Shown here one piece after another: positions 10,908-27,133 of a stretch of DNA of 64,000 nucleotides. The DNA lies in contig CAJFQI010000001.1 in NCBI GenBank assembly GCA_904419005.1, forward strand, positions 1-64,000. Direction: 5' to 3'. How positions within the stretch are numbered: the stretch's first letter is position 1; the number at the start of each line of letters is the position of its first letter. The translations under genes were made by a program, and so were the position numbers. This DNA is from Candidatus Avimonas faecium. GTDB lineage: Bacteria; Bacillota; Clostridia; Oscillospirales; Acutalibacteraceae. The notes below the pieces were generated by a model. The model was not told the origin of the DNA and did no database searches. It was given only the letters and a program-made list of their open reading frames with translations.

Positions 10908-11900
10908 TTATACGGCTGGGTACGCTCCCCCGTCTTCCACCGCAAAGCAGAGGCGGGTATGCTTGACCTGGCCGGGCTCGAGATACTCCGCGTCCGGCGA
11001 GGCGAGGTAAGCCGCGCGCCCCACCGGATGGCAGTTGCCCGGCTCCAGCCCCAGGACATATTCGCCCTGGCCGAACATATTCCACTGGGTGAAGCAGGGC
11101 AGAGCCTCCGCGTCCCAGCTCATGCGCACCGCCGCCGCCGGCGAACGCAGGGACGCCTGGTCGGCGCCTTTGTGAAAGAACACCTGCTCGGCATAGCCCG
11201 GCTGCGGGGGAAGCATCGTAAACATCGTCTTTTCCCCCTTGGCGGCTTCCTCGTCCCGCGGGAGGCTCTGGGCCGCGTTGACCGACAGGACGGCTTGCTC
11301 GCTGAGCAGGGGATAGCCGTAATTGCAATGGTACATCAGCATCAGCGGCGCCCGCTCAAAGGCGTTGTTGCACACGTCGTCTTCCACTTCAATGACATTT
11401 TTGCGGGTGTAAGTACGGATCCTCCGGCGCAGCGTAAAGTTTTCGCCGAAAATGCCCCCCTGCCGCATCAGGCCGCGCACCTCAAGGATGTCCCCGTCCG
11501 GGCCGTCCTGCGGGATCCGCTCCAGGCAGACCTGCTCCGCCGTCAGGGAGGTATACCGCCCGTGCTGGCCGTAGGCCACGCCGTCTTCCATCACCCCGTC
11601 CGGGCCGACGTTGCAGAGCCCGCAGGTATACAACAGCCCGCCGGTAAAGCTGTGCTTCCACTCCTTGCCGCCGTTTTGGTAATAGACGGCCGAGGTCATC
11701 CCCGAAGCGGCCAAATAGGACAGGTTGAGCCCTTTATACGAGGCCGGGCCGATATCCATGCCGCGGCCCAAAAGGACGGTAAAGCGTAAGCCGGTTTCGT
11801 TGTACACCTCCACGGCCTCCAGGCCGTCCATCGCCCCCTCGGTAAAGCGGTAGCGCAGAAAGCCGGCAAGCTGGCCGGGATGCCCGATATACGCGTCCAT
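10908..11900 (-). CDS. DUF4432 / aldose 1-epimerase-like family protein
   Basis: MDAYIGHPGQLAGFLRYRFTEGAMDGLEAVEVYNETGLRFTVLLGRGMDIGPASYKGLNLSYLAASG..., DUF4432 pattern. Start chosen at 11900. Confidence 0.85.
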   Translation of the reverse strand: MDAYIGHPGQLAGFLRYRFTEGAMDGLEAVEVYNETGLRFTVLLGRGMDIGPASYKGLNLSYLAASGMTSAVYYQNGGKEWKHSFTGGLLYTCGLCNVGPDGVMEDGVAYGQHGRYTSLTAEQVCLERIPQDGPDGDILEVRGLMRQGGIFGENFTLRRRIRTYTRKNVIEVEDDVCNNAFERAPLMLMYHCNYGYPLLSEQAVLSVNAAQSLPRDEEAAKGEKTMFTMLPPQPGYAEQVFFHKGADQASLRSPAAAVRMSWDAEALPCFTQWNMFGQGEYVLGLEPGNCHPVGRAAYLASPDAEYLEPGQVKHTRLCFAVEDGGAYPAV

Positions 11901-12100
11901 AGCGGTTCCTTCCTTTCCAGGGCAGGCGACGGGGCTCCCGCGCAATCCGCCCTCTATACCGATTGCGTTTTGTTCATTGTAGTCCAATTCGCTGGGATAG
12001 GCAAGAGGAATACCTGGGATTTTTGCATTATCCTGCCTTTGCCTGCCTATCCGCCCCGCCTGTTTTGGCTCCGGAACCCGCCCGCCTTCCGGCCGGGATA

Positions 12101-12136
12101 AGAAGGGCCCCTCCATGGTTCAACACGGAAGGGCCC
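12101..12136 (-). terminator. Intrinsic terminator downstream of Dph6-like gene
   Basis: Minus strand GGGCCCTTCC ... GGAGGGGCCC then TTCTTA. Confidence 0.65.
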
Positions 12137-12156: not shown

Positions 12157-12810
12157 TCACGCCTGCTTATGCACAATGTTGATGGCCGAAATGTTGCCAA
12201 AATCCAGGATTTCCCGGCATTCGTAGGGGACGGGGAAGCGGAAGAGAGGGCCGTCCAGCACCACCATATGGTATTCGCCGTTTTCGCCGCAGACGTCAAT
12301 CCCCCGCGCCGCCATCTGGCGCAGGAGGCCTTCATTCAGCGCACGGCCCAGAAAGCTCTGCGGCAGGTCCCGGTTGCGAACGCATTTGATGACGCAGCGA
12401 TATCCGAGGGAAACGGCCTCCCTCGTGTTTTCCAGGCGGTCGCAGTGCCACAGGGGGAACAGCGGCTTGAGCCCTGCCGCCTCACAGCGGGCACGGCACC
12501 ACGCCGCGTTGCCTGCGGCGTCAATGTCCCCGAACGCGCAGGCCTCCGCGCCCTGCGCGGCGGCGAGCCGCAGGCCCTTTTCCATCGCCAGGTGGTAATC
12601 GTGCCCCTCCGATTCGCAGGGCAGCAGCGGAAGGCCGAGGGAATCCGCGATGGCCGCCAGCAGCTCCGGATCCACCCCGTGGAACCAGGAACGGCCCTGC
12701 TCCCGGTTCATCATCACCAGCAGGCCGGCCGGCTTATGCCCCGCCCGGCAAAGCTTATGCAGGGTTAGGACGCTGTCCTTGCCCGCGCTGAAGGAAACGA
12801 CCACTTTCAT
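12157..12810 (-). CDS. DUF71/COG2102 Dph6-related ATP pyrophosphatase (PP-loop)
   Basis: MKVVVSFSAGKDSVLTLHKLCRAGHKPAGLLVMMN (SxGKDS PP-loop) ... GEYHMVVLDGPLF, typical of diphthine-ammonia ligase-like proteins. Confidence 0.87.
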   Translation of the reverse strand: MKVVVSFSAGKDSVLTLHKLCRAGHKPAGLLVMMNREQGRSWFHGVDPELLAAIADSLGLPLLPCESEGHDYHLAMEKGLRLAAAQGAEACAFGDIDAAGNAAWCRARCEAAGLKPLFPLWHCDRLENTREAVSLGYRCVIKCVRNRDLPQSFLGRALNEGLLRQMAARGIDVCGENGEYHMVVLDGPLFRFPVPYECREILDFGNISAINIVHKQA

Positions 12811-12833
12811 CCGTCAAGCAACCTTCCCGCCCC

Positions 12834-13709
12834 TCAGCGCTGGAAATCGTCCCAGGTGCCGGTCCGGCCGATATCGTAGCCCAAATCGCAGGTATACAGC
12901 CATTCAATCCGGTCCCCCTGCTTGAGCTGGTAGCGGCTGCATCCATAATTGGGGAACCAGCCGTTCACCTTGTACATCCAGCCGCTTCCCTCGCCGCAGT
13001 CCATCTCGTACAGGTTGTTAATCCCCTCAATATAATTGCTGTTGTAGAGGGGCGTGCGCACAAATTCCATATGGATGCGGTTTTTCTTGGTTTCCCGGAG
13101 CAGGACGTCAAACGCCGATTCCCCTTCGTAGAAGGTAACGGTGCGCTCCGCGTAGATCACGCCGTCCTCCGGCAGGACTCCCAGCTTATCCTTGTTGAAG
13201 AGGTCCATATTGTCCAGGATGGTATCGCAGCGGATGGACAGGGTGCAGGTCAGGCGGGTGTCCTCGTCAATCTCCGCATCCTCGGGCTCCACCGGCTTGG
13301 GCGTGGTGGCCGCCGCGGCCGGCTTGGATGTGGTGGTCGTAGTCGATTTCCCGGCGGTAGAGGAAGGGGCGGAGGATCCGGCCTTCCCGGAGTCCGTCCC
13401 GCCCTGGCCGGCGGTTTCCTGCGTGTCCGGCGATTCCGCCGTACCCTGTGTCTCCTGAGCCCCCTGCGCTTCCGGCTGCGTCCCCTCCGCATCCGGGGAT
13501 GTTTCCCCGGATGCGGCCGGGGCCGTCGTGCCGCCGGTGCTGCCGGCGTCCTGCGTCTCCTGGACCAGCAAGGCGTCGTCCGCTACCTCGTCCGGGAATT
13601 CAATGGTACAGCCGCTCAAGCCGATCAAAACGGCAAACAGCAGGGCAAGCAGGCCAAGCCCTGCCGAAAGCCCCCGTTTCCCGCCTGTCTTTTTATCCAT
13701 TCGTTTCAT
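12834..13709 (-). CDS. DUF4430 (transcobalamin-like C-terminal domain) lipoprotein
   Basis: MKRMDKKTGGKRGLSAGLGLLALLFAVLIGLSGC lipobox; T/A/P-rich linker; C-terminus YNSNYIEGINNLYEMDCGEGSGWMYKVNGWFPNYGCSRYQLKQGDRIEWLYTCDLGYDIG = DUF4430. Confidence 0.85.
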   Translation of the reverse strand: MKRMDKKTGGKRGLSAGLGLLALLFAVLIGLSGCTIEFPDEVADDALLVQETQDAGSTGGTTAPAASGETSPDAEGTQPEAQGAQETQGTAESPDTQETAGQGGTDSGKAGSSAPSSTAGKSTTTTTSKPAAAATTPKPVEPEDAEIDEDTRLTCTLSIRCDTILDNMDLFNKDKLGVLPEDGVIYAERTVTFYEGESAFDVLLRETKKNRIHMEFVRTPLYNSNYIEGINNLYEMDCGEGSGWMYKVNGWFPNYGCSRYQLKQGDRIEWLYTCDLGYDIGRTGTWDDFQR

Positions 13710-13802
13710 CGCCGTATTCCCCGCCTTTATTGGCGGGAGACAAAGGCCCGGTTTCCCGCGCCTTTGTCTCCCCATTTTCCATCCGCAGTATCTAGGAACG
13801 CG

Positions 13803-16769
13803 CTACCGGCGTCCCTTTTTGGTTGCCGCGACGCCGGCCAGGGCCGCCAACGCCAGGACAAACAGCCCCGTCGCCGCCGTTTCCCCGGTGGAAGGCGAGG
13901 CGGTTCCCTCCCCGTTGGAAGGCGTTTCCTCCTGGGCGGGAGGCACCGCACCCGTCCCGCCGTCCTTCAGGCCGGAGGCCAGGAAGTATTCGCCGCCCTC
14001 CTCCACCGTCAGGACCGCTTTGCCGTCCTCCACCGTAACCGTCTGCAGCTTTTCGGCCGCGCCCGTATCGGGATCAAAGCGGTACAGGGTCCGCTGGCCG
14101 TCTTGGCCGCCGACCTCCAGCGTCAGCGCCGCTTTGCCCGGGAAGGCCCCGCTCTGAGCGAAAGCAAAGGCAAAGGGATCCTCCGCCAGGGCGGCGATGG
14201 CCGCCTGGTTCGCCGTATCGCCCAGAGCCAGCCCATAGGCGAAGTCCGCCGGCCGGGTAATATCCAGCCCGTTGAAGGTCAGGGTATACCCCTCGCCGGA
14301 GACGCTGTAATCCCGGTCGTCGTCCCGGATCAGCTCAAACACCAGCTCCGGGATCACGCCCTTTTCAAGCGAAGCGATGATCGCCTGCGCATCGGCCACG
14401 TCCGAATAATACTGCACATACTCTTTTTCCGAATCCCGCAGGGCGTCGTATTTCGCCAGGATCGCCTGCACGGTTTCCTTGTCCGCCAGGGTGATGTTCC
14501 GGGGATCAAGTTCGTTCCAGATCCGCTCGTCAATTTCGTCCACCGCCGCGCGGTAGCCGGTCACCGCCTGATAGACGGCCTCGAGCTTTTCGCGGCCCTG
14601 CACCTGCGCCTGCACGTTCGGATGCAGGGCGGCAAAATCCGCGTACGCCGCTTGGACGGCGGCCTCGTGGGCCAGCGTCACCTCCTGCGCCGAAGGCAGC
14701 GCGGCAATCAGCGCTTCAACCCCCGGTACAAGGGCCGCGTCGTCGAGCTCCTTAATCTTATCCTTGGCGGCCAGCAGCCGGTCCGCATTTTCCACCTCGG
14801 CGCGGTCCGCTTCGCTGAGCGCCTGGTACGCCGCCCACAGCTCGTTGACCGTCGCTTTGTCCTCCAGCGTCACGTCCGCGGCGTCGGGCAGGAGCGCGAT
14901 CTTTTCAACCAGCCCGTCAATCGAGCCCTTCAGGTCATACAGCGCATCCACCGCCTCGGCGAGCTTTTCCCGCCCCTGCACGAGCAGCTTATCCTCGTCA
15001 AGCAGGCTGCCGTAGAGGAAATAGGCGGCTTCAATCGCCTCTTCGTCAGCCAGCGTCACGTTTTCGGAAATCCTCGCGATCCCTGTCTCTGCCTGCGCAA
15101 CCAGGGAATCGGTCAGCTCCTGCATTTTGCCGGTGAGCGCGGTGAGCTTGCCGGCGTTGCCTACCTCGGCCTGCTCGGCGGCCGTCAGCCCGTCGTACCG
15201 CTTCTGCGCGGCGAGGATCGTCTTCTTATCGGCATAGGCGGCGTCCTGCTCGTCGGGGAGGATGCTCACCGCGTTTTCCACGTCCTCGGCGGTAAACGCC
15301 GCGTTTTTGTTGCGGAAGATGGTCAGCGCATAGGTGGTGGCGCCTTGTTCGCGATTCGGGTCAGAAGCAATGCCAAAATAGGAGCTGCTGCCGCCGATCA
15401 TGTACAGGTTGCCGTATTGGTCGGCCTTGAAGGAGGCGGAATTGTAGGTGGTGCCGCGGTACCGCTCCCCGCCGATCTGCACATCGGTGCCGATCTGGAA
15501 GGCCTCCTTGTACTGCGTCTGGCCCGGCTGGTCCTCAAAGACATAGCCGACGCCGGACATGTAGTCAATCGCATAAACGTAAACCTTGTAATTGTTCTCC
15601 TCACTGGCGTAGGCCGTGCAGATCAGCGGCACGCTCTGGGAGCTCAGCCCCTCAATGGTATAAGCCGGCTCCAGCGTATCGGCGTCCAGCACGGTAAAGC
15701 CGCCCGAAACGTGCATCCCGCCCGAGGGGACGTAAATCCGCCCGTTATAGGCGCTCACGCCGCCGGTCACGCCGCCGCCGATGGCATCCGCCGCCGATTC
15801 CTGGACGGTTTGGTGGTTAAAGGTGCCGTCCGCATTGAGCTCAATGGTAAAAAGCTGCGCGGTATACTTGGTCGCCACGATCAGGCGGTTGGTGGTCGCG
15901 TCGTAAATCAGGTTGGAACGCACCTGGTCGCCCAGATCAAGGGTATCGTACACCACATCCTTGGTCAGGTGGTGGGAATACAGGACGCCGGAATCCCCGA
16001 CAAAATAGATCCGGCTGCCGACCACCACGCCGCCGGCCCAGTAATAGCCGCCGGTTTCGGACTTCCAGACATAGTCCTTGACTTCATAGGGATCGGACAG
16101 GTCCTCGTCTTCGGTTGAAACGCAGACATAGGCCCCCTGGGTTGCCCCGGTGCCGCCCCCGCCGCCGTTGGTGTAGCCGGTATAAATATAGCCGTCGTTA
16201 TAGGTGATGGTGCAGAGCATCTGCTTTTCCGCCGGCGTCAGCCAGAGCGGCTCCATCGTTTCGGCGTCGAACGCCTGGATCCGGTTGCTGAGCAGCACGA
16301 AAAGCTTCCCGTCGCCATAGCACATACGGGAGAAAAAGCCGGTTTTATCCACGCTATCGCCGTCGCCGTCGCCGAGCTTGACCTCCTTGAGCCGCTCGCC
16401 CGTCACGATGTCGTAGCAGACCAGGGTATCGTAGGTATAGGTGCTCCCGCTGGTCGTGGTAAAGTACATCTTGTCGCCGACGATCACCGGGTCCTGGGCG
16501 GAAATGTTCTCCCCGCCTACCTTTTCCGCCTGCCCGTACAGCAGCATTTCCATCTCGTCCAGGGTGGTGGGCAGCTTGCTTTCCACCACGGCGGAATTGC
16601 CGCTGTCCTTGGCAAACGAGGACCAATACGCCTCCTGCGCCGCCGTTTCCTCCGCCGGCGCGGCCAGGGCGCCGGTGCTGAGGAGCGTCCCCAGCATTGC
16701 CAGCGTCAGGACGCCTGAAAGCAGCCGCCGGCCGGCCCCCGGGCAGCCCGTCGTCTTTGGTTTGTTCAT
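13803..16769 (-). CDS. Secreted PQQ-like beta-propeller protein with five ~52-aa helical repeats and a C-terminal cell-wall sorting-like signal
   Basis: Signal peptide (LLSGVLTLAMLGTLLSTGALAAPA); propeller-like VIVGDKMYFTTTSGSTYTYDTLVCYDIVTGERL... GDGKLFVLLSNRIQAFDAETMEPLW; repeats such as VEKIALLPDAADVTLEDKATVNELWAAYQALSEADRAEVENADRL; ends SPSTGETAATGLFVLALAALAGVAATKKGRR. Confidence 0.85.
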   Translation of the reverse strand: MNKPKTTGCPGAGRRLLSGVLTLAMLGTLLSTGALAAPAEETAAQEAYWSSFAKDSGNSAVVESKLPTTLDEMEMLLYGQAEKVGGENISAQDPVIVGDKMYFTTTSGSTYTYDTLVCYDIVTGERLKEVKLGDGDGDSVDKTGFFSRMCYGDGKLFVLLSNRIQAFDAETMEPLWLTPAEKQMLCTITYNDGYIYTGYTNGGGGGTGATQGAYVCVSTEDEDLSDPYEVKDYVWKSETGGYYWAGGVVVGSRIYFVGDSGVLYSHHLTKDVVYDTLDLGDQVRSNLIYDATTNRLIVATKYTAQLFTIELNADGTFNHQTVQESAADAIGGGVTGGVSAYNGRIYVPSGGMHVSGGFTVLDADTLEPAYTIEGLSSQSVPLICTAYASEENNYKVYVYAIDYMSGVGYVFEDQPGQTQYKEAFQIGTDVQIGGERYRGTTYNSASFKADQYGNLYMIGGSSSYFGIASDPNREQGATTYALTIFRNKNAAFTAEDVENAVSILPDEQDAAYADKKTILAAQKRYDGLTAAEQAEVGNAGKLTALTGKMQELTDSLVAQAETGIARISENVTLADEEAIEAAYFLYGSLLDEDKLLVQGREKLAEAVDALYDLKGSIDGLVEKIALLPDAADVTLEDKATVNELWAAYQALSEADRAEVENADRLLAAKDKIKELDDAALVPGVEALIAALPSAQEVTLAHEAAVQAAYADFAALHPNVQAQVQGREKLEAVYQAVTGYRAAVDEIDERIWNELDPRNITLADKETVQAILAKYDALRDSEKEYVQYYSDVADAQAIIASLEKGVIPELVFELIRDDDRDYSVSGEGYTLTFNGLDITRPADFAYGLALGDTANQAAIAALAEDPFAFAFAQSGAFPGKAALTLEVGGQDGQRTLYRFDPDTGAAEKLQTVTVEDGKAVLTVEEGGEYFLASGLKDGGTGAVPPAQEETPSNGEGTASPSTGETAATGLFVLALAALAGVAATKKGRR

Positions 16770-16810
16770 AGTCCCTCTCCTTCTTCCTCTTTGTTTTCAT
16801 CCGGGAAGGA

Positions 16811-16843
16811 ACAGAAAAGGGAGCCGAAATGCTTCGGCTCCCT
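16811..16843 (-). terminator. Intrinsic terminator between cobalamin riboswitch and propeller gene (expression platform)
   Basis: Minus strand AGGGAGCCGAA-GCAT-TTCGGCTCCCT (11 bp perfect stem) then TTTCTGT. Confidence 0.8.
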
Positions 16844-16945
16844 GCTTGATAAAGTGGACGGGAGGCCCCTTCAGGCCCGGCGCCGGGCCAAAAGACGGCT
16901 TCCCCCGCAATTTATCCTCTGTTTCCGCCGAAAAGATTGATAAAC

Positions 16946-17142
16946 ATGCAAGGCAGGTCTCCTGGCTCGAAATCGTCCTACCGGCGCGGCCCTTCCCAGA
17001 GGCGGAAATCCGTCTCCAGTGGCTCCCACGGGAAAACCCGTGTCCACGCTTTCGTCCTTCTCACAGTAGCGGGCGGCTGCCGCGGCTTTTCACCGCGTTC
17101 CCTTTTCATCCGCCGCGCGGGGGCGCGGCGGCAACCATTGCA
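16946..17142 (-). ncRNA. Cobalamin (B12) riboswitch
   Basis: Minus strand GCAATGGTTGCC...AAAAGGGAACGCGGTGAAAAGCCGCGGCAGCCGCCCGCTACTGTGAGAAGGACGAAAGCGTGG...GCCACTGG...GGGAAGG...CCGGTAGGACGATTTCGAGCCAGGAGACCTGCCTTGCATG: canonical core incl. B12 box. Confidence 0.96.
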
Positions 17143-17176
17143 TCTGCGCTTTATGCAATTGTCAAATTGCGGTTAT

Positions 17177-17205
17177 ATTGTAGCCTGCCTAACGCCAAAA
17201 GTCAA
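17177..17205 (-). promoter_or_regulatory. Promoter of riboswitch transcript, TTGACT-N17-TACAAT
   Basis: Minus strand TTGACT (17200-17205), TACAAT (17177-17182), just upstream of the aptamer. Confidence 0.8.
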
Positions 17206-17391: not shown

Positions 17392-18291
17392 CTACGGCTC
17401 GAGCATCCCGTATTTGACCTTGATCCGGTCAAGGATCTCAATCACCGGCTTGGAGAAAAACAGGAGGAAAAAGGCGGTGGCCACCGCATGGGTCAAATCA
17501 AACCGGAAGGCAGAGACATACGTGGCAATCACGGTCGGCCAGGTCAGCGGGTTCCCGGAGCTGAGCAGCGTCCCCAGGTTGATGATCCCCCCGTAGATCA
17601 GGAAGGTGGCCAGGGTTCCATAGATGCACAGCGGGATCCGCTTTTTGGGCAGCAGACCCTTTTTGAACAATATTCCCGCCAGGAAGCCCACGATCCCGAA
17701 GCAGAACATCTGCCAGGGGGTGTAGATGCCCTGGCCGAAGAAGAAGTTGGAAACAAACCCGGTCACCGCGCCGACCAGGAAGCCCGACTCCGCCCCGAAG
17801 CAGACCCCCGCGATGATCACGATGGCGCACACCGGCTTGAATTGGGGCAGCATATAGAAAGCGGCCCGGCCCGCCACCGCCAGCGCGGCCAGGGTGGCGA
17901 TCACAATCAGCTCCCGCGCCTGGGGCTTCCGTTTTTCAAACACCATGAAAAACGGGATCATGGTGCAGATGATAATCAGCAGGGAAACCGCGTAATACAG
18001 CCGCCAGACCACGGTGGTCCCGAAAAGGGAAAATTCCCATTTCATGGTCTGCATCCGGCTGCCCAGCACAACCAGCACGACCGGGATCAGGACGACGATA
18101 AAAAACAGCGACACCCGCGTCCGCTTGCTCAGCTTATGTTTGCTTTTTTCCTTCGGCGGCCGCTTTCCCGGAGCCTCCGGCGTCGGAGCCGGGCAGGAGG
18201 GGGATGCGTTCCCGGGTTGGATTCCCCCGCCCTGCGGGGCGGGCGCCGAAGGCGCTGTATGCGGGTCCGGGGTCACAAATTCCGTTGGCAC
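17392..18291 (-). CDS. ECF transporter S component, CbrT-like (putative cobalamin)
   Basis: GRAAFYMLPQFKPVCAIVIIAGVCFGAESGFLVGAVTGFVSNFFFGQGIYTPWQMFCFGIVGFLAG, typical of CbrT-type S components; Pro-rich N-terminal extension. Confidence 0.82.
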   Translation of the reverse strand: MPTEFVTPDPHTAPSAPAPQGGGIQPGNASPSCPAPTPEAPGKRPPKEKSKHKLSKRTRVSLFFIVVLIPVVLVVLGSRMQTMKWEFSLFGTTVVWRLYYAVSLLIIICTMIPFFMVFEKRKPQARELIVIATLAALAVAGRAAFYMLPQFKPVCAIVIIAGVCFGAESGFLVGAVTGFVSNFFFGQGIYTPWQMFCFGIVGFLAGILFKKGLLPKKRIPLCIYGTLATFLIYGGIINLGTLLSSGNPLTWPTVIATYVSAFRFDLTHAVATAFFLLFFSKPVIEILDRIKVKYGMLEP

Positions 18292-19973
18292 AGCGCAATA
18301 ACCTCCTCCTCTGTCACGGCATCCGGGAAAAGCCGGCGGGCCATCCGGTTGGCCGCGGTGGTATAAAAGCTGTTGCCCGCGAAGAATGCGCGGGTGGGCC
18401 CGGAGGAAACCACGCTGCCGCCGAAGAACATGGCGCAGGTGTCGGCATACCGGGCGCAGAATTCCACGTCGTGGGAGACCATCACGATGGTTACCCCCTG
18501 CCCCTGGAGCTTTTTCAGGATGCCGGCCAGCGTCCGCTTAAAGTAGCCGTCAATCCCCTTGGTCGGCTCATCAAGCAGCAGCAGGCGCGGCTCGAGCAGG
18601 AGCACCTTGGCCAGCGCGGCGCGCTGCTGCTCCCCGCCGCTGAGGTCGTAGGGGTGCATCGGCAGCAGATCCTCAATCTCGGTCAGGGCGGCCATTTCCC
18701 GCGCTTTGCCCCGCTTCTCCTCCGCGGTCATCCGGCGGCCGGAGAACATCTCCATTAGGTCAAGCTCCACCGTCTTTTTGACAAAAAGGGCCTGCGGGTT
18801 CTGGGGGAGCACCCCCAGGTTATGGTGAAACAATTCCTCGTCGGTGTATTTGGAAAGCTCCCGGCCGTGGAGCTTGATTTTCCCGCGGTAGGGCCGGCTC
18901 AGGCGGCTCATCAGGTTCAGGGTGGTGGTTTTCCCGGTGCCGTTGCCGCCGACGATGGCCATCCACTCGCCGCTTTGCACCGTGAGGTTCAGATCCCGGA
19001 TCACGTCGGGGGCGCTCTTTTCGTATTTGAACCACACGTCCTTCATCTCAATGGCGGGAGCCGCCCCGTCCGCCGCCTTGCCTTCCGTCCCCTCCCCGGC
19101 GGGAAGGGCCGTCTGGGCGGGCGCCTTGTCCCGGAACAGCTCATCCAGCCACTGGCGGCCGTCCCGCACGGTGAGGGGGCAGGGCAGGCGATTTTCCACC
19201 CCCGCGTGAATCCGGATGGGCGCGGGAAGGGCCCAGAACATATCGTGCTTTTTCTCTTTGAGGATCCGCCCTACCTCCGCCGGCCGGTCGTAGCAGAGCA
19301 GCCTGCCCTGGTCAAGCACCGCCACCCGGTCCGCCGCGGGAAAGATCTCGTCCAGCCGATGCTCCGAAATCAGGATGGTGGTGCCCAGCTCCCGGTTGAT
19401 CTTCTTGACCGTCTCAAGGAATTCGGAGGCGGCGATCGGGTCGAGCTGGGAGGTCGGCTCGTCCAGGATCAGCACGCCGGGCTGCATCGCCATGACCGAG
19501 GCAAGGTTGAGCAGCTGCTTCTGCCCGCCGGAAAGCTCGGTCACATTCCGCATAAACCAGCCCTGGATGCCGAAAAAGCTCGCCATCTCCGCCACCCGCA
19601 GCCGGATGGTCGCCTTATCGCAGCCCAGGCTTTCCAGACCGAAGGCAAGCTCGTGCCAGACCTTGTCGGTCACGATCTGGTTATCCGGGTTCTGCAGCAC
19701 ATACCCGATCCCGGACGCCTGAGCGCGCTGATCGGCCTCCTCAAGGGGACGCCCGTTGTACAGGATAACGCCCTCCCGCGTCCCATGCGGGGTTAAAACG
19801 GTTTTGAGATGGCGCAGGAGGGTGCTTTTCCCGCAGCCCGAACGGCCGCAGAGGGCGACAAACTCCCCCTCCCGCACCGTCATGGTCAAATGATCCAGCG
19901 CCTTTTTGGTCTGTTCGGGATAGGAAAAGGTCAGATTTTCGATTGCAAACGAGCCCATTTGGCGTCCTCCCAC
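18273..19973 (-). CDS. ECF transporter ATPase, two ABC domains fused in one chain
   Basis: Two Walker A motifs (GRSGCGKST, GGNGTGKTT) and two signature motifs (LSGGQKQ, LSGGEQQR). Confidence 0.92.
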   Translation of the reverse strand: MGGRQMGSFAIENLTFSYPEQTKKALDHLTMTVREGEFVALCGRSGCGKSTLLRHLKTVLTPHGTREGVILYNGRPLEEADQRAQASGIGYVLQNPDNQIVTDKVWHELAFGLESLGCDKATIRLRVAEMASFFGIQGWFMRNVTELSGGQKQLLNLASVMAMQPGVLILDEPTSQLDPIAASEFLETVKKINRELGTTILISEHRLDEIFPAADRVAVLDQGRLLCYDRPAEVGRILKEKKHDMFWALPAPIRIHAGVENRLPCPLTVRDGRQWLDELFRDKAPAQTALPAGEGTEGKAADGAAPAIEMKDVWFKYEKSAPDVIRDLNLTVQSGEWMAIVGGNGTGKTTTLNLMSRLSRPYRGKIKLHGRELSKYTDEELFHHNLGVLPQNPQALFVKKTVELDLMEMFSGRRMTAEEKRGKAREMAALTEIEDLLPMHPYDLSGGEQQRAALAKVLLLEPRLLLLDEPTKGIDGYFKRTLAGILKKLQGQGVTIVMVSHDVEFCARYADTCAMFFGGSVVSSGPTRAFFAGNSFYTTAANRMARRLFPDAVTEEEVIALCQRNL

Positions 19974-20818
19974 AAATCCATGATCAGCGGCATCAGGCAG
20001 AGCCCCGCGTATCCGAGGTAAACCGTCAGGCTGAAGGGCGAAAAAGGCTTGACAACAAGCGCGGGGAAATACACGATGTTGTTTTCCCCCGCCGCCGCGC
20101 CGGCCAGCACCACCGCGATCAGCAGCAGCAGCACAACGAGGCCCAGCACGTCCCGCCGGTCAAAACGGTAATTGGAGAAGCTGGTCCGCCCCTTCAGCCC
20201 GTAGCCGCGCGATTTCATCGAGTCTGCCGTGTCAATCGCGTTTTCCAGCGCCCAGGTAATCAGGATCAGCAGGATCTTCATCCCGTTTTTCGCACGCTGA
20301 ATAACGCCGCCGTTGCTGACATCCCGCCCGATGCACTTCTGCGCGTTTGAGATCACCCGCGCCTGCGCCTTGAACCGCGGCACCAGGCGCAGCGTCATCG
20401 ACAGCACCAGGGACAGGGCGGGGATCACCCGCCCAAACAGATAGATAAATTTATCCGAGGTCATCACCGCATTGTAGCAGGAGAACCAGATGATGACCGA
20501 GACGAACATGGTCGCCGCCGCAAAGCCGTAAATAATGGATTCGGCCGTGACCGGATTGTCGTTGACGTAAACCAGGATGGTCGCCCCTTCGTGGTTGAAC
20601 ACGGGATTCATCACGGCAAAAAGCAGCAGGACGGGAAGCATCATCAGGTTGAACCGCACCGCTTTCCCCCGGTTGAGATAGGTGGAGTAGGCCATGCCGC
20701 ACAGCAGGGAAATCCCCAGGAAAACGGGGTGGAGGAAGAACATGCTGAACAGGATGACCGCCAGGAAATACAGGAAATTCACCACCGGGTGAAAGGACGA
20801 AAAGCTATCCTTCAACAT
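19931..20818 (-). CDS. ecfT: ECF transporter transmembrane component EcfT
   Basis: MLKDSFSSFHPVVNFLYFLAVILFSMFFLHPVFLGISLLCG ... DTADSMKSRGYGLKGRTSFSNYRF (Ala/Ser-Arg-Gly coupling motif SRGYG). Confidence 0.88.
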   Translation of the reverse strand: MLKDSFSSFHPVVNFLYFLAVILFSMFFLHPVFLGISLLCGMAYSTYLNRGKAVRFNLMMLPVLLLFAVMNPVFNHEGATILVYVNDNPVTAESIIYGFAAATMFVSVIIWFSCYNAVMTSDKFIYLFGRVIPALSLVLSMTLRLVPRFKAQARVISNAQKCIGRDVSNGGVIQRAKNGMKILLILITWALENAIDTADSMKSRGYGLKGRTSFSNYRFDRRDVLGLVVLLLLIAVVLAGAAAGENNIVYFPALVVKPFSPFSLTVYLGYAGLCLMPLIMDLWEDAKWARLQSKI

Positions 20819-20871
20819 CGCTCCCCCTCTCAATACGGGCGCCGGCCAGGCCCGGCTTCACCGTTCTCTTT

Positions 20872-22624: not shown

Positions 22625-23668
22625 TCATCCCTTCGGGAGCACCGACAGGGCGAATACCGCCAGGCCGGCGGCGGCCAGCCAGACCGGCAGCGGCCGGAAG
22701 GAGGGCGGCAGGTGGGGGTTGCCGGCAGGCTCCAGGCGCGGGGCCGCCGCCGCAATCAGCGCGCACCCCAGCCCCAGGATCAGCGCCGCCGCCGCGATCC
22801 CCCCATACAGGGGAAGGGCCGCCGCTTCGGGCAGGCGCCGGTCGGCCGCGAGCACGGCCAAGGCCGCCAGAGCCGGCAGAGTGCCGTCCGAAAAAACGGC
22901 GCGCAGGGCTGCCTTGACCGGCGCTTCGTTGGGCTTCTGCCGGAGCGCCGCACCCGCCGCGAGGGCCAGCAGCCCGGCCAAGGCGGCGGCGAAGAAGGGC
23001 CTCCAAACCGATGGGAGGGGGAACCGCCTGGTCAGCGGGGCGAACAGAGCCCCGGCCGCCGCCGTCAGGCCCGCCGCGCACGCCGCATACAGCAACCCCT
23101 CCGGAACCCGGTAGCCGCTCAGCCGGCCCTTCCCGCGCACGCGCACCAGCGCCAGCAGCAGGGCGGCTGCAACCAGGCCCGCCCCGCCGAAGGCAAAGGA
23201 AGCGGACAGCGGGAACCCGTCCGGCAGGAGCCGCACCCCGGCCAGCGTGCCGGCCGACAGCAGCTCCCGCACCCCGCCGGTCAACAGAAGGGCCGCGGCG
23301 CAGCCCACCGGCTGCCCGGCGGGCAGGGGCGGCTTTTCGTCCAGGGACAGGGCCGCCGGGGCGCTGAACAGCAGCAGGGCCGCCGACAGACCCTCCGGCC
23401 CCATCGCATCCCGCCAGGCAGGGCGCCAGGCGGAAAGCGCCAGCGACAGGGCGGTATACAGCGCCGCGGCAAAGAGAAGGGAGGCCGCGTTTTTGGCCGG
23501 GCCGGCAAGGGGCCGGAAAATCCGCAGCATCAGCAGATTGAGCAGCAGGAGCAGCCCGCCGCCGGCAATAGCCAGCAGCGCCGCGGTCAGGGAGCCGCAG
23601 CCCGCGGCCAGCAGGCAAAAGAATACCGCCGCGCCGTCTACCGACGGACGCCGTTTCACGGGGGCCAT
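22625..23668 (-). CDS. Fused RnfE/RnfA-like membrane protein, divergent
   Basis: N-half has RnfE-like VRELLSAGTLAGVRLLPDG; C-terminus PPSFRPLPVWLAAAGLAVFALSVL resembles RnfA/E tail (vPkafrGlPialitaGlmaLaF). Follows rnfG directly. Confidence 0.6.
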   Translation of the reverse strand: MAPVKRRPSVDGAAVFFCLLAAGCGSLTAALLAIAGGGLLLLLNLLMLRIFRPLAGPAKNAASLLFAAALYTALSLALSAWRPAWRDAMGPEGLSAALLLFSAPAALSLDEKPPLPAGQPVGCAAALLLTGGVRELLSAGTLAGVRLLPDGFPLSASFAFGGAGLVAAALLLALVRVRGKGRLSGYRVPEGLLYAACAAGLTAAAGALFAPLTRRFPLPSVWRPFFAAALAGLLALAAGAALRQKPNEAPVKAALRAVFSDGTLPALAALAVLAADRRLPEAAALPLYGGIAAAALILGLGCALIAAAAPRLEPAGNPHLPPSFRPLPVWLAAAGLAVFALSVLPKG

Positions 23669-23669
23669 C

Positions 23670-24677
23670 CTACCGGCTCTCCCGGGCCAGGGCCGCCGCC
23701 AACACATACGCGCGGTTGGCGGCCCTGACCACCGCCCTCGAGGAAACCGTCGCGCCGGTTACGCCGTCCACTTCCCCGTTGCCGGCGGCCGCGTTATCCA
23801 CGCCGCCCTCCGTGCCGCCTTCCTGCCCCTGTGGAGGCGCTTCCCGCAGCGCTTCGGCCGCCAGCCGGACGAATTCCGACACACTCACCGACACCCCGGT
23901 ATAGGCGTCGGTCTTGCCCGTGTCCGCATCGTATACCAACGCCGCCGGATCCTGCACGGCAATCAGCGCGTCCTGCATAACCGCGGCCTGTTCATGCCAC
24001 AGCAGGCCGTCCTCTGTCATGACGTATTCGCCCGCCTGCGACTCCTGCTTCTTTGTCCGGTCGGAGCCTTCCTTCCGGGCGTCCCAATTGACCGCCGTAA
24101 TCCGGCCGCCCTGCACCGTGATTTCCACAAAGGCGCGGTAGCCGTCCACATAGTCCTCCTGCTCGGCGCGGTAGCTGCCGTCCTTCCACATCTCCGGCAC
24201 AGAGGACGCGCCGCTCGGCGCCCCATCGTCCATACCAGTGTAGCCATCCAGGGAAGCGGGGGCCGCCAGGGAATCAAACTGGCGGTAAAACGCCTCCTCC
24301 GTCACGCGGGAGCCGTAGCCCTGCGTTTCCTGGTTGTCGCCGACGCGCAGCCCTAAGAAGCGGGAGGCGTCGGCCGAGAGGGCGGTATGCACCTGCATCT
24401 CCCCGCCGTAGCCTTTGACCGCGACGGTGACGGCGTAGCCGAGCAGGGCGCCGTCTGCATCCAGTACCCGGTATGCGGCTTTTATATCGGATTCCCCCGC
24501 CGTGTCCACCGCCTGCCAGGTATCGCCCGAAATCACGCCGGAAAATGCGTCCTGCACCGCCTGAAGCTCCTGCTTCTCAATGACGCGGCGGGTGACGGCG
24601 TCCATTCCAAAAAGCAGCGCTGCCGAAACCGCGGTCACCGCCAGCAGGCTCAGCAGCGGCTTAAGCCATTGTTTCAT
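23670..24677 (-). CDS. rnfG: RnfG-like FMN-binding protein, with an internal duplicated FMN-binding-like region
   Basis: MKQWLKPLLSLLAVTAVSAALLFGMDAVTRRVI ... VKGYGGEMQVHTALSADASRFLGLRVGDNQETQGYG...; C-terminal VDGVTGATVSSRAVVRAANRAY. Confidence 0.82.
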   Translation of the reverse strand: MKQWLKPLLSLLAVTAVSAALLFGMDAVTRRVIEKQELQAVQDAFSGVISGDTWQAVDTAGESDIKAAYRVLDADGALLGYAVTVAVKGYGGEMQVHTALSADASRFLGLRVGDNQETQGYGSRVTEEAFYRQFDSLAAPASLDGYTGMDDGAPSGASSVPEMWKDGSYRAEQEDYVDGYRAFVEITVQGGRITAVNWDARKEGSDRTKKQESQAGEYVMTEDGLLWHEQAAVMQDALIAVQDPAALVYDADTGKTDAYTGVSVSVSEFVRLAAEALREAPPQGQEGGTEGGVDNAAAGNGEVDGVTGATVSSRAVVRAANRAYVLAAALARESR

Positions 24678-24825
24678 AGTCCACATCCTACCCCTTCCTT
24701 GTTCCGCCGCGGCGCACAGCGCCGGCCCGGCGATGCCTTTTCCACACCCCGTGCGCCGTCTGTCCGGCTGCCCGGGCGGAAATCCCTGTTTCTACTCCTG
24801 ATGAGATCCAAAGGCCGCCGGCGGC

Positions 24826-25770
24826 TCACCGCTTGGCCGGGTCGGGCGCCGCCGCATGGGACGGCCGCGTACCGTAGACCGGCGGGCGGGTGAGATACTC
24901 TATCAGCGGGGTGGCCAGGTTCATCAGCAGGATGGCAAAGCACATCCCCTCCGGGTACGGGCCCCAAAGGCGGAGCGCCGCCGTCAATATCCCCACCCCG
25001 GCGGCGAAAACCAGCTCGCCGGCAAAGGTGGTGGGCTTGCCGGTAAAATCGGTCGCCATATAAAAGGCGCCCAGCAGCAGCCCGCCGGATAAGACCTGCG
25101 CCGCCGCCTTGCCGGTAAACAGGGGCTCCCCGCCGAAAATCCAATAAAAGAGGGCGAAGCTCCACACGCAGACGGCCGGCACCCGCAGCCGGATGCATCC
25201 GGTTGCCAGAAGATATGCCCCGCCCAAGAGGATCAGCAGCGCCGAGGTTTCCCCCAGGCTGCCGTTTTCCCCACCCCAGAGCATCGGCCAAAGATCCCCG
25301 CCCGCCGCAAGCGGGGTGGCGGAGGAAACGGCATCCGCCCATTCGTACCCGCGCAGGCTGGACGGCCATACCGCCATCAGCATGGCGCGGCCCGCCATCG
25401 CGGGGTTGAGCAGGTTGTGCCCGATCCCCCCGAAAAGCTGCTTGACCACCGCGATGGCGAAAACGCCGGCCGCCGCCGCGGCAAGCAGGCTGGTCCCCGC
25501 CGGCAGGGAAAGGGCCAGCAGCAGCCCGGTCACGACCGCGCTGCCGTCAAACGCCGCCCTGTCCCGGCGGAGCCTGAGGCACAGCCACTCGCTGGCCGCG
25601 CAGGCCGCCACCGTCACCAGCAGCAGCCACAGCGCCCGGAGCCGGAAAAACCAAAGCGCGGCGGCCACCGGCGGGATGAGGCCGATGCAGACGTCCCGCA
25701 TGATGCCCCGCGTGTCCCGCGGACGGCGGATATAAGGAGCGGACAGCGCGATATTCGGTTTCTGGTTCAA
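24826..25770 (-). CDS. rnfD: RnfD-like electron transport complex membrane subunit
   Basis: MNQKPNIALSAPYIRRPRDTRGIMRDVCIGLIPP ... GGIGHNLLNPAMAGRAML ... SSATPL flavinylation-like motif ... YMATDFTGKPTTFAG. Confidence 0.9.
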   Translation of the reverse strand: MNQKPNIALSAPYIRRPRDTRGIMRDVCIGLIPPVAAALWFFRLRALWLLLVTVAACAASEWLCLRLRRDRAAFDGSAVVTGLLLALSLPAGTSLLAAAAAGVFAIAVVKQLFGGIGHNLLNPAMAGRAMLMAVWPSSLRGYEWADAVSSATPLAAGGDLWPMLWGGENGSLGETSALLILLGGAYLLATGCIRLRVPAVCVWSFALFYWIFGGEPLFTGKAAAQVLSGGLLLGAFYMATDFTGKPTTFAGELVFAAGVGILTAALRLWGPYPEGMCFAILLMNLATPLIEYLTRPPVYGTRPSHAAAPDPAKR

Positions 25771-25822
25771 CGGATTTCCCTCCTCTGCGTGACGGCCCGG
25801 CGGCTTCCCAGCCCCCGCGCGG

Positions 25823-27133
25823 TCAGGCGCGCTTGGCCCGGTTTTCCAGGAAAGCGGAGCGGGCCATCGTCACCCGATGGGCCAGCGGCCGCTTGGCCGG
25901 GCAGATATAGGAACAGCAGCCGCAGGAAATGCACTGGTCGGCCCGGTAGGCCGCGCAGGCCGCCATATCCCCGGCGATCACCGCCGCGTCAATAGCGAAG
26001 GGGAGCAGGGACGAGGGGCAGACCCTCGCGCAGCCCCCGCAGCGGATGCAGTTGCTTTCCTTAAATTCCGGCCGGTCGAGCACCACCAGGCCGGTTGTGC
26101 CTTTGGTGACCGGGGCCTCCAGGGACGGCATGGCCGCGCCGGTCATCGGCCCGCCGGCAATCCAAAGCAAGCGGGCCTCCCCGGTCGCCCCGCCGCAGTA
26201 ATCCAGCAGCTCCGACAGGCGGGTGCCGATCGGGACATAGAGGTTGGCGGGCCGGGCCACCCGGCCGGAAACGGTCACCACCCGATGGGTGAGGGGGCGC
26301 CCCTGCAGCGCGTCGGCCAGGGCTGCCGCCGTCCCTACGTTGCTGACGACCGCCCCGCAGTCGGCGGGCAGGCCGCCGGCCGGGACCTCCCGCCCCAGGA
26401 CGGCCCGGATGAGCTGGCGCTCGCCCCCCTGCGGGTACTTGGCCGGGAGGCGGACCACCGCCATCCCTTCCCGGCCGCGGACGGCCTCCTCAAGCAGGGC
26501 GGCGGCATCCGGCTTGTTGGACTCCACGCACAGGAACACCTGCGCGCCGCCCGCCGCCGTTTGCAGCGCCGCGGCCCCGGCGACCACCCGCTCCGGCTGC
26601 TCCGCCATCAGGCGGTGGTCGCCGGTGAGATAGGGCTCGCATTCCGCGCCGTTGACCAGCACATACCGGATCGGCTTGTTGGTTTGATATTTTAGAAAGG
26701 TGGGAAAGCCCGCGCCGCCCAGGCCGGCCAGCCCCGCCTCCCGCATCAGGGCGCGGATGCCGTCCCGGGTATCCTCGTGGGCCAGCGGCGGCGCCGCCTC
26801 CCCCTTCCCGTCGCTGTCCACCACCACGGCGAGGGTCTCTCCCGCTGCCGAAGGGCGGGGCTCCACCGCACGGACAACCCCCGATACGCCGCAGTGGATG
26901 GGCGCGGCAAAGGCCGGGCGGCCGTCCTTGCCCTCGGGCGGGACGGCCACGGCCTGGCCGGCCAGCACCCGCTCCCCCGGCTTTACGATGGGGAGGCACT
27001 CCGCCCCGACGCCCTGCCGCATCAACAGCACCAGCCGCGCCGGGGTAAAGGGGCGGATGGAGCTCTGCGAGGTGGGATCCTTATGCTCTGCGGCGTGGCC
27101 GAACACCACGCCGCCCCGAAAAGGCAGAGGCAT
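25823..27133 (-). CDS. rnfC: RnfC-like electron transport complex subunit
   Basis: GLGGAGFPTFLKY, VNGAECEPYLTGDHRLM, ESNCIRCGGCARVCP and DQCISCGCCSYICPAKRPL (two 4Fe-4S motifs). Confidence 0.92.
   Translation of the reverse strand: MPLPFRGGVVFGHAAEHKDPTSQSSIRPFTPARLVLLMRQGVGAECLPIVKPGERVLAGQAVAVPPEGKDGRPAFAAPIHCGVSGVVRAVEPRPSAAGETLAVVVDSDGKGEAAPPLAHEDTRDGIRALMREAGLAGLGGAGFPTFLKYQTNKPIRYVLVNGAECEPYLTGDHRLMAEQPERVVAGAAALQTAAGGAQVFLCVESNKPDAAALLEEAVRGREGMAVVRLPAKYPQGGERQLIRAVLGREVPAGGLPADCGAVVSNVGTAAALADALQGRPLTHRVVTVSGRVARPANLYVPIGTRLSELLDYCGGATGEARLLWIAGGPMTGAAMPSLEAPVTKGTTGLVVLDRPEFKESNCIRCGGCARVCPSSLLPFAIDAAVIAGDMAACAAYRADQCISCGCCSYICPAKRPLAHRVTMARSAFLENRAKRA

Follow-up and report, generated by a model that had tools for sequence, protein, structure and literature searches.

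What do a secreted beta-propeller and a DUF4430 lipoprotein do together under a cobalamin riboswitch, and do they serve the ECF importer encoded beside them? The locus lies in the window, the whole 64,000-nt stretch of contig CAJFQI010000001.1 analysed here. An earlier sequence-only reading had described a promoter, a full B12 aptamer, an attenuator and three minus-strand genes, all of which were confirmed (Table 1). The aptamer spans the full-length model (1–189), with a gathering score of 31.5 for comparison and an E value of 1.8e-23 over the window, and the genome (2.57 Mb, 95% complete) has no other match to RF00174. Two promoter-like sites were found against 0.2 in shuffled sequences, and the 3′ region folds at -70.1 kcal/mol (z -4.5). 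The riboswitch mechanism is taken from the known family; what is observed here are its parts. When cobamide is scarce, the riboswitch would let RNA polymerase past the terminator, and propeller, DUF4430 and DUF71 proteins would be made.

Table 1. Features of the riboswitch operon and of the adjoining ECF module (positions in the window)
Feature	Position	Strand	Evidence or content
EcfT transmembrane component (CbiQ family)	19931..20833	minus	PF02361 E 1.5e-9
Fused double ECF ATPase (EcfA-A')	18273..19973	minus	TIGR04520 E 2e-104, two stretches
CbrT-like ECF S-component	17392..18291	minus	family profile matches 6FNP chain A, E 4.9e-21
Sigma-70-type promoter TTGACT-17-TACAAT	17177..17205	minus	10/12 consensus matches
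Cobalamin riboswitch aptamer RF00174, complete	16935..17155	minus	98.8 bits
Intrinsic terminator of riboswitch expression platform	16818..16843	minus	11-bp AGGGAGCCGAAGCATTTCGGCTCCCT-TTTCTG
Secreted BamB/PQQ-type beta-propeller surface protein, 988 aa	13803..16769	minus	signal peptide, propeller, helical stalk, C-terminal domain, anchor
Propeller domain, about aa 36-480	15330..16664	minus	alignment, AF2 model, Foldseek
Alpha-helical repeat region, about aa 490-800 (probable stalk)	14370..15302	minus	reading of translation
Putative C-terminal anchor SPSTGE, hydrophobic segment, KKGRR	13806..13898	minus	translation
DUF4430 lipoprotein	12834..13709	minus	lipobox LSGC, low-complexity linker, transcobalamin beta-domain-like C-terminus
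DUF4430 domain as aligned and modelled	12846..13274	minus	AF2 pLDDT 95.3
DUF71/COG2102 PP-loop protein, DUF71-B12 subgroup	12157..12810	minus	Pfam E 1.9e-34; ENGEYH motif

The tight gene spacing described earlier probably does not extend to the first gap. The DUF4430 frame (13775-12834, Pfam E 1.9e-18) more probably starts at ATG 13709, the start with the lipobox LSGC, than at 13775, and with this start the gap after the propeller gene is about 93 nt, not about 27. This gap contains an inverted repeat without a T run (13735-13773, GGGAGACAAAGGC...GCCTTTGTCTCCC), perhaps a processing or attenuation hairpin that sets the propeller:DUF4430 protein ratio. Directly downstream of the DUF71 gene, on the same strand, lies a DUF4432 (aldose-epimerase-like) gene (10908-12116), probably unrelated since it is present in only one of 109 loci from the window's family. 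Probable genes of an Rnf-type complex (an FMN-binding protein, RnfC/RnfD-like frames) are found on the same strand upstream of the ECF module, at 22625-27133.

The EcfT-EcfA-EcfS module (20833-17392) is located just upstream of the riboswitch operon on the same strand, and its genes are therefore outside the cis control of the window's riboswitch. Among solved structures, the S-component family is closest to CbrT (6FNP, E 4.9e-21), followed by 4hzu (3.3e-5) and a riboflavin S-component (6.8e-5). CbrT transports cobalamin and cobinamide (PMC5997447), and by homology the EcfS of the window is a putative CbrT-type cobalamin S-component whose transport activity is predicted. One could also suppose that the module imports another cargo, such as cobalt or another vitamin, and that the riboswitch-controlled surface proteins are chance neighbours. 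The Pfam labels (CbiQ-type cobalt transporter for EcfT, generic or riboflavin-type S-component for EcfS) and the position of the ECF genes outside the riboswitch transcript would fit this explanation. We nevertheless consider it most improbable, as relatives carry the same ECF genes inside the riboswitch operon and as the CbrT match stands far from the next structure.

Whether this arrangement is more than local was examined in two samples. The first comprised 150 genomes of the window's family, 90 of which have a cobalamin riboswitch above cut-off, mostly one each; 109 loci were cut out, 104 of them with a riboswitch. These 104 loci include DUF4430 in 70 cases, an alpha/alpha-toroid in 23, the propeller in 13 and BtuC-like genes in 9. 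The 18 propeller loci of the family carry DUF4430 (17), ECF genes (16) and the riboswitch (13), and every one has DUF4430, ECF genes or both. Their recurrent layout is riboswitch-propeller-DUF4430-EcfT-EcfA-EcfS (e.g. L055, L069, L100 and L161). The commonest riboswitch-controlled layout of the family is nonetheless riboswitch-DUF4430-small S-component; since many loci consist of DUF4430 and a small S-component alone, a minimal system can do without the propeller.

For the second sample, a scan of 84,980 species yielded 142 propeller relatives, and the best 80 loci, all from named genomes, were taken, including those of Eubacterium barkeri, Caproiciproducens, Blautia, Dorea, Roseburia and Collinsella. 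The synteny anticipated from the window recurs in these 80 loci: DUF4430 is present in 70, ECF genes in 58 and the cobalamin riboswitch in 55, the opposite of what would be seen if homologous propellers consistently lacked a B12 riboswitch. Riboswitches were called with a profile trained on the family loci (E<1e-5). Its hits fall upstream of the propeller in 55 cases and downstream in 2, and shuffled DNA gave none. About 0.4 would be expected, given roughly one riboswitch per 2-3 Mb in family genomes and 1.02 Mb covered. In 50 of the 80 loci the riboswitch is on the same strand and within 2.5 kb of the propeller. A recheck of nine loci with Rfam confirmed the profile's result in each. At least one of riboswitch, DUF4430 and ECF genes accompanies the propeller in 78 loci; the other two propellers lie near a contig end. 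Because of the origin of the profile and of a few genomes common to both, the two samples are not fully independent. Taken together, these comparisons argue strongly for B12 regulation of the predicted gene set and for its service to a CbrT-type importer. Since the set recurs across gut Clostridia and Collinsella, it is very probably a route of external B12 uptake for many of them.

In 18 records a single open frame encodes both propeller and DUF4430; two records represent the same locus, leaving about 17 relatives, and the isolates E. barkeri and Collinsella intestinalis are included. Both fused domains are above the Pfam cut-off in L211, L176 and L203, and two of the 18 records carry a toroid as well. 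Natural fusion and conserved linkage argue for a physical partnership of propeller and DUF4430. Pfam finds S-layer homology domains in L176 and L247, another way of surface retention.

The DUF4430 protein, encoded by the sole PF14478 match in the genome, had been likened to the C-terminal domain of transcobalamin, and structural and sequence comparisons agree on this likeness. At E<=0.001 the model has 19 Foldseek matches in the PDB, every one of them to transcobalamin, intrinsic factor, haptocorrin or the bacterial relative 3u7z, with E values of 2.5e-6 to 2.8e-5 for the transcobalamin family. They include 5np4, the isolated human transcobalamin beta-domain with bound cyanocobalamin; against the isolated beta-domain (5no0, 5np4) the TM score normalised by target is 0.74. 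The DUF4430 sequence profile recovers transcobalamin-1, transcobalamin-2 and intrinsic factor weakly (E 0.005-0.23). Judged by modelled fold and context, DUF4430 likely binds corrinoid.

The propeller domain was modelled with pLDDT 81 and pTM 0.86. In Foldseek it comes closest to BamB and to the design Cake8, both of which we take to be eight-bladed propellers, and a profile of 18 sequences likewise gave BamB and designed PQQ-type propellers as best matches; PDB searches with single sequences returned no useful match. We know of no BamB/PQQ propeller that binds corrinoid. Homology with BtuG was rejected on the profile search: of 68 matches at E<=1, the 60 listed do not include the BtuG chain (3DSM), and BtuG is also absent from the top 50 Foldseek matches. 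The earlier proposal is supported as regards a B12-regulated extracellular pair serving the adjacent ECF importer; homology with BtuG is not supported. Residues at the blade starts are conserved at a mean of 2.74 bits against 2.07, which is weak evidence of function because such residues are also structural.

The helical repeats that follow the propeller, which match no Pfam family above cut-off, are probably a stalk through the wall. Compared with curated sorting motifs, the tail gives Rumino_NPXTG at E 0.015, below cut-off, and SPSTG, a transmembrane segment and a basic tail are present. From this tail and from the one sortase match in the genome, the protein would be wall-anchored.

No alpha/alpha-toroid was found by Pfam in the window locus. 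Sister loci do carry one: in many related loci a secreted toroid gene precedes DUF4430, often with the same kind of sorting tail. A toroid plus a DUF4430-type domain is the domain set of transcobalamin. The toroid profile itself, however, finds squalene-hopene cyclases instead of transcobalamin, and its matches include no cobalamin-binder family of animals; a direct pairing with the toroid of transcobalamin was rejected. The DUF4430 of the window is up to 69-73% identical to that of a toroid locus (L102), and the DUF4430 tree is suggestive of six partner changes, but its supported branches force only one. For this reason the exchange was assessed on the longer ECF alignment. In the EcfT+EcfA+EcfS tree a single origin of propeller loci is rejected (AU p 0.002), and the propeller locus L087 is sister to the toroid locus L127 with full support. 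This suggests that the toroid and the propeller are able to fill one and the same role. Strict mutual exclusion of the two was discarded: none of 41 family loci has both, but 9 of the 80 named propeller loci contain a toroid too.

Two loci of one genome, G101, deserve mention. By its ECF genes, L072 (G101:C4:356000-372000) is the closest to the window; it carries EcfT-A-S, riboswitch, DUF4430 and DUF71 but lacks a propeller. In L075 (G101:C4:312000-328000), a second riboswitch controls a 1220-aa wall-anchored toroid protein. In a sampled congeneric species (G104, L056) the single riboswitch precedes BtuF-, BtuC- and ABC-ATPase-like genes without propeller-DUF4430; as read from the two loci, this is an exchange of the whole system within one genus.

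Operon conservation, fusions, the CbrT-like S-component, the transcobalamin-like fold and the repeated toroid exchange all bear on the role of the pair, which we regard with good confidence as the extracellular part of a B12 (cobamide) ECF importer. Direct contact of the propeller with corrinoid, suggested by the toroid exchange and by analogy with BtuG, is an evenly balanced matter. More tentatively, and a little short of an even chance, the propeller may be the second half of a corrinoid clamp, which together with DUF4430 would sandwich the cobamide at the wall, would have arisen independently of BtuG and would repeatedly have been exchanged for a transcobalamin-like toroid before the same ECF importer. 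Alternatively, the propeller might not touch corrinoid at all and instead be a wall-anchored scaffold that positions a corrinoid-binding DUF4430, or that docks B12-carrying proteins or cells. This is plausible, if on balance doubtful: BamB, its nearest fold, is an assembly scaffold, the commonest layout does without the propeller, and fusions and linkage indicate partnership, not ligand contact. However, repeated alternation with an alpha/alpha-toroid, a fold of the class that supplies one half of the corrinoid clamp in transcobalamin, would be harder to explain for a mere scaffold.

In the importer reading that we favour, we infer corrinoid binding, hand-over and wall anchoring as follows. 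The propeller protein would be exported and kept at the wall by its stalk and tail, and the DUF4430 lipoprotein tethered to the membrane via an N-terminal lipid and the long linker. DUF4430 would hold the corrinoid in the manner of the transcobalamin beta-domain. The propeller, in the role of the toroid of sister loci, would close the other face of the corrinoid, or catch it first and pass it on. The pair would then hand the corrinoid to the CbrT-like S-component, with uptake driven by EcfT-EcfA. In the cytoplasm, DUF71 probably aids cobamide salvage, which would feed MetH and a corrinoid methyltransferase protein.

The product of the third gene carries CGENGEYHMVV, i.e. the ENGEYH form of the motif ENGE(F/Y)H that replaces EGG(E/D)XE in the DUF71-B12 subgroup, for which a role in cobamide salvage is predicted (PMC3541065). 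DUF71 occurs in 2 of 109 family loci and in none of the 80 named propeller loci, and the supposed operon partner is thus sporadic, an occasional passenger that we reject as a core part of the system. These data bear also on another explanation, namely that the propeller or DUF71 acts at a different step and remodels or cleaves cobamides, capture being secondary. Quinoprotein and tetrathionate-hydrolase folds, among the Foldseek matches of the propeller model, would suit a quinoprotein-like enzyme, and the salvage role predicted for DUF71-B12 also speaks for this explanation. Almost all propeller loci lack DUF71, however, and the propeller's partners are a binding-type domain and an importer, which makes this explanation very unlikely.

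CbiB genomes carry DUF71-B12 or CbiZ (PMC3541065). The 95%-complete genome of the window has no match to CbiB (PF03186), and DUF71-B12 without CbiB departs from that co-occurrence pattern; either CbiB is encoded in the 5% that the assembly lacks, or the function of DUF71 is different in this genome. Given no CbiB match, the genome probably depends on imported cobamide. It has three B12-binding-domain matches; L171 is methionine synthase (metH E 2e-150) and L172 a glycine-betaine-type (MtgC-like) corrinoid protein adjoining a PocR-like regulator. Elsewhere in the genome are two FecCD permeases, one of which adjoins a distant BtuF-like binding protein (23% identity). They could be a second B12 route, and the genome's RF00174 search placed no cobalamin riboswitch at either locus.

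How does the capture module compare with known systems? With ECF-CbrT of Lactobacillus delbrueckii (6FNP; PMC5997447) it has in common the S-component family, ECF-type ATP-driven uptake and the B12 genetic context, whereas here dedicated EcfT-A-S genes are linked to propeller or toroid and DUF4430 under a B12 riboswitch. The work on CbrT included no extracytoplasmic partner, although its gene adjoins another, cbrS, whose product is not described there (PMC5997447). Transcobalamin, intrinsic factor and haptocorrin share with DUF4430 the fold of their C-terminal beta-domain, and the likeness is extended in sister loci by the toroid, sometimes fused to DUF4430. In contrast to transcobalamin, the window system is bacterial, predicted to be membrane- or wall-tethered, and split over two genes, with a beta-propeller where sister loci have a toroid. 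The BtuG (and BtuH) system of Bacteroidetes likewise has a surface beta-propeller that a B12 riboswitch controls, next to a B12 transporter. With its seven blades, BtuG is an outer-membrane lipoprotein and a partner of BtuB, and is reported only from Bacteroidetes (PMC6143338, PMC8941943), whereas the window propeller is of BamB/PQQ type, has a sorting-like tail, is accompanied by an ECF importer instead of BtuB and shows no detectable sequence similarity. The DUF71-B12 subgroup (PMC3541065) shares the ENGEYH motif and a site beside B12 transport genes and differs in the missing CbiB match.

The riboswitch, CbrT, DUF71-B12 and the resemblance of DUF4430 to transcobalamin are each already known. 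We found no description of a propeller/toroid, DUF4430 and ECF operon in the open-access literature, and an ECF importer for B12 whose extracellular capture module resembles transcobalamin is apparently undescribed. The operon provides named candidates across Roseburia, Blautia, Dorea, Eubacterium, Caproiciproducens and Collinsella, of relevance to B12 competition with Bacteroides and the host. It supplies extracellular partners for a class of ECF transporters in which the S-component is usually taken to suffice, and ties bacterial uptake proteins by fold to the animal B12 carriers. If the clamp reading is true, the modular design of these carriers would have a counterpart, perhaps a source, in bacterial uptake systems.

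Two further observations extend the survey. In L020 of G080, an AdoCbl-II riboswitch (RF01689, positions 65-137, 37.5 bits, just over cut-off) precedes by about 1.1 kb a propeller gene in whose vicinity RF00174 has no match. The best NCBIfam match of the toroid proteins of L060 and L061, far below cut-off, is the SCO2321 family, which hints at a possible toroid-type relative of the system in actinobacteria.
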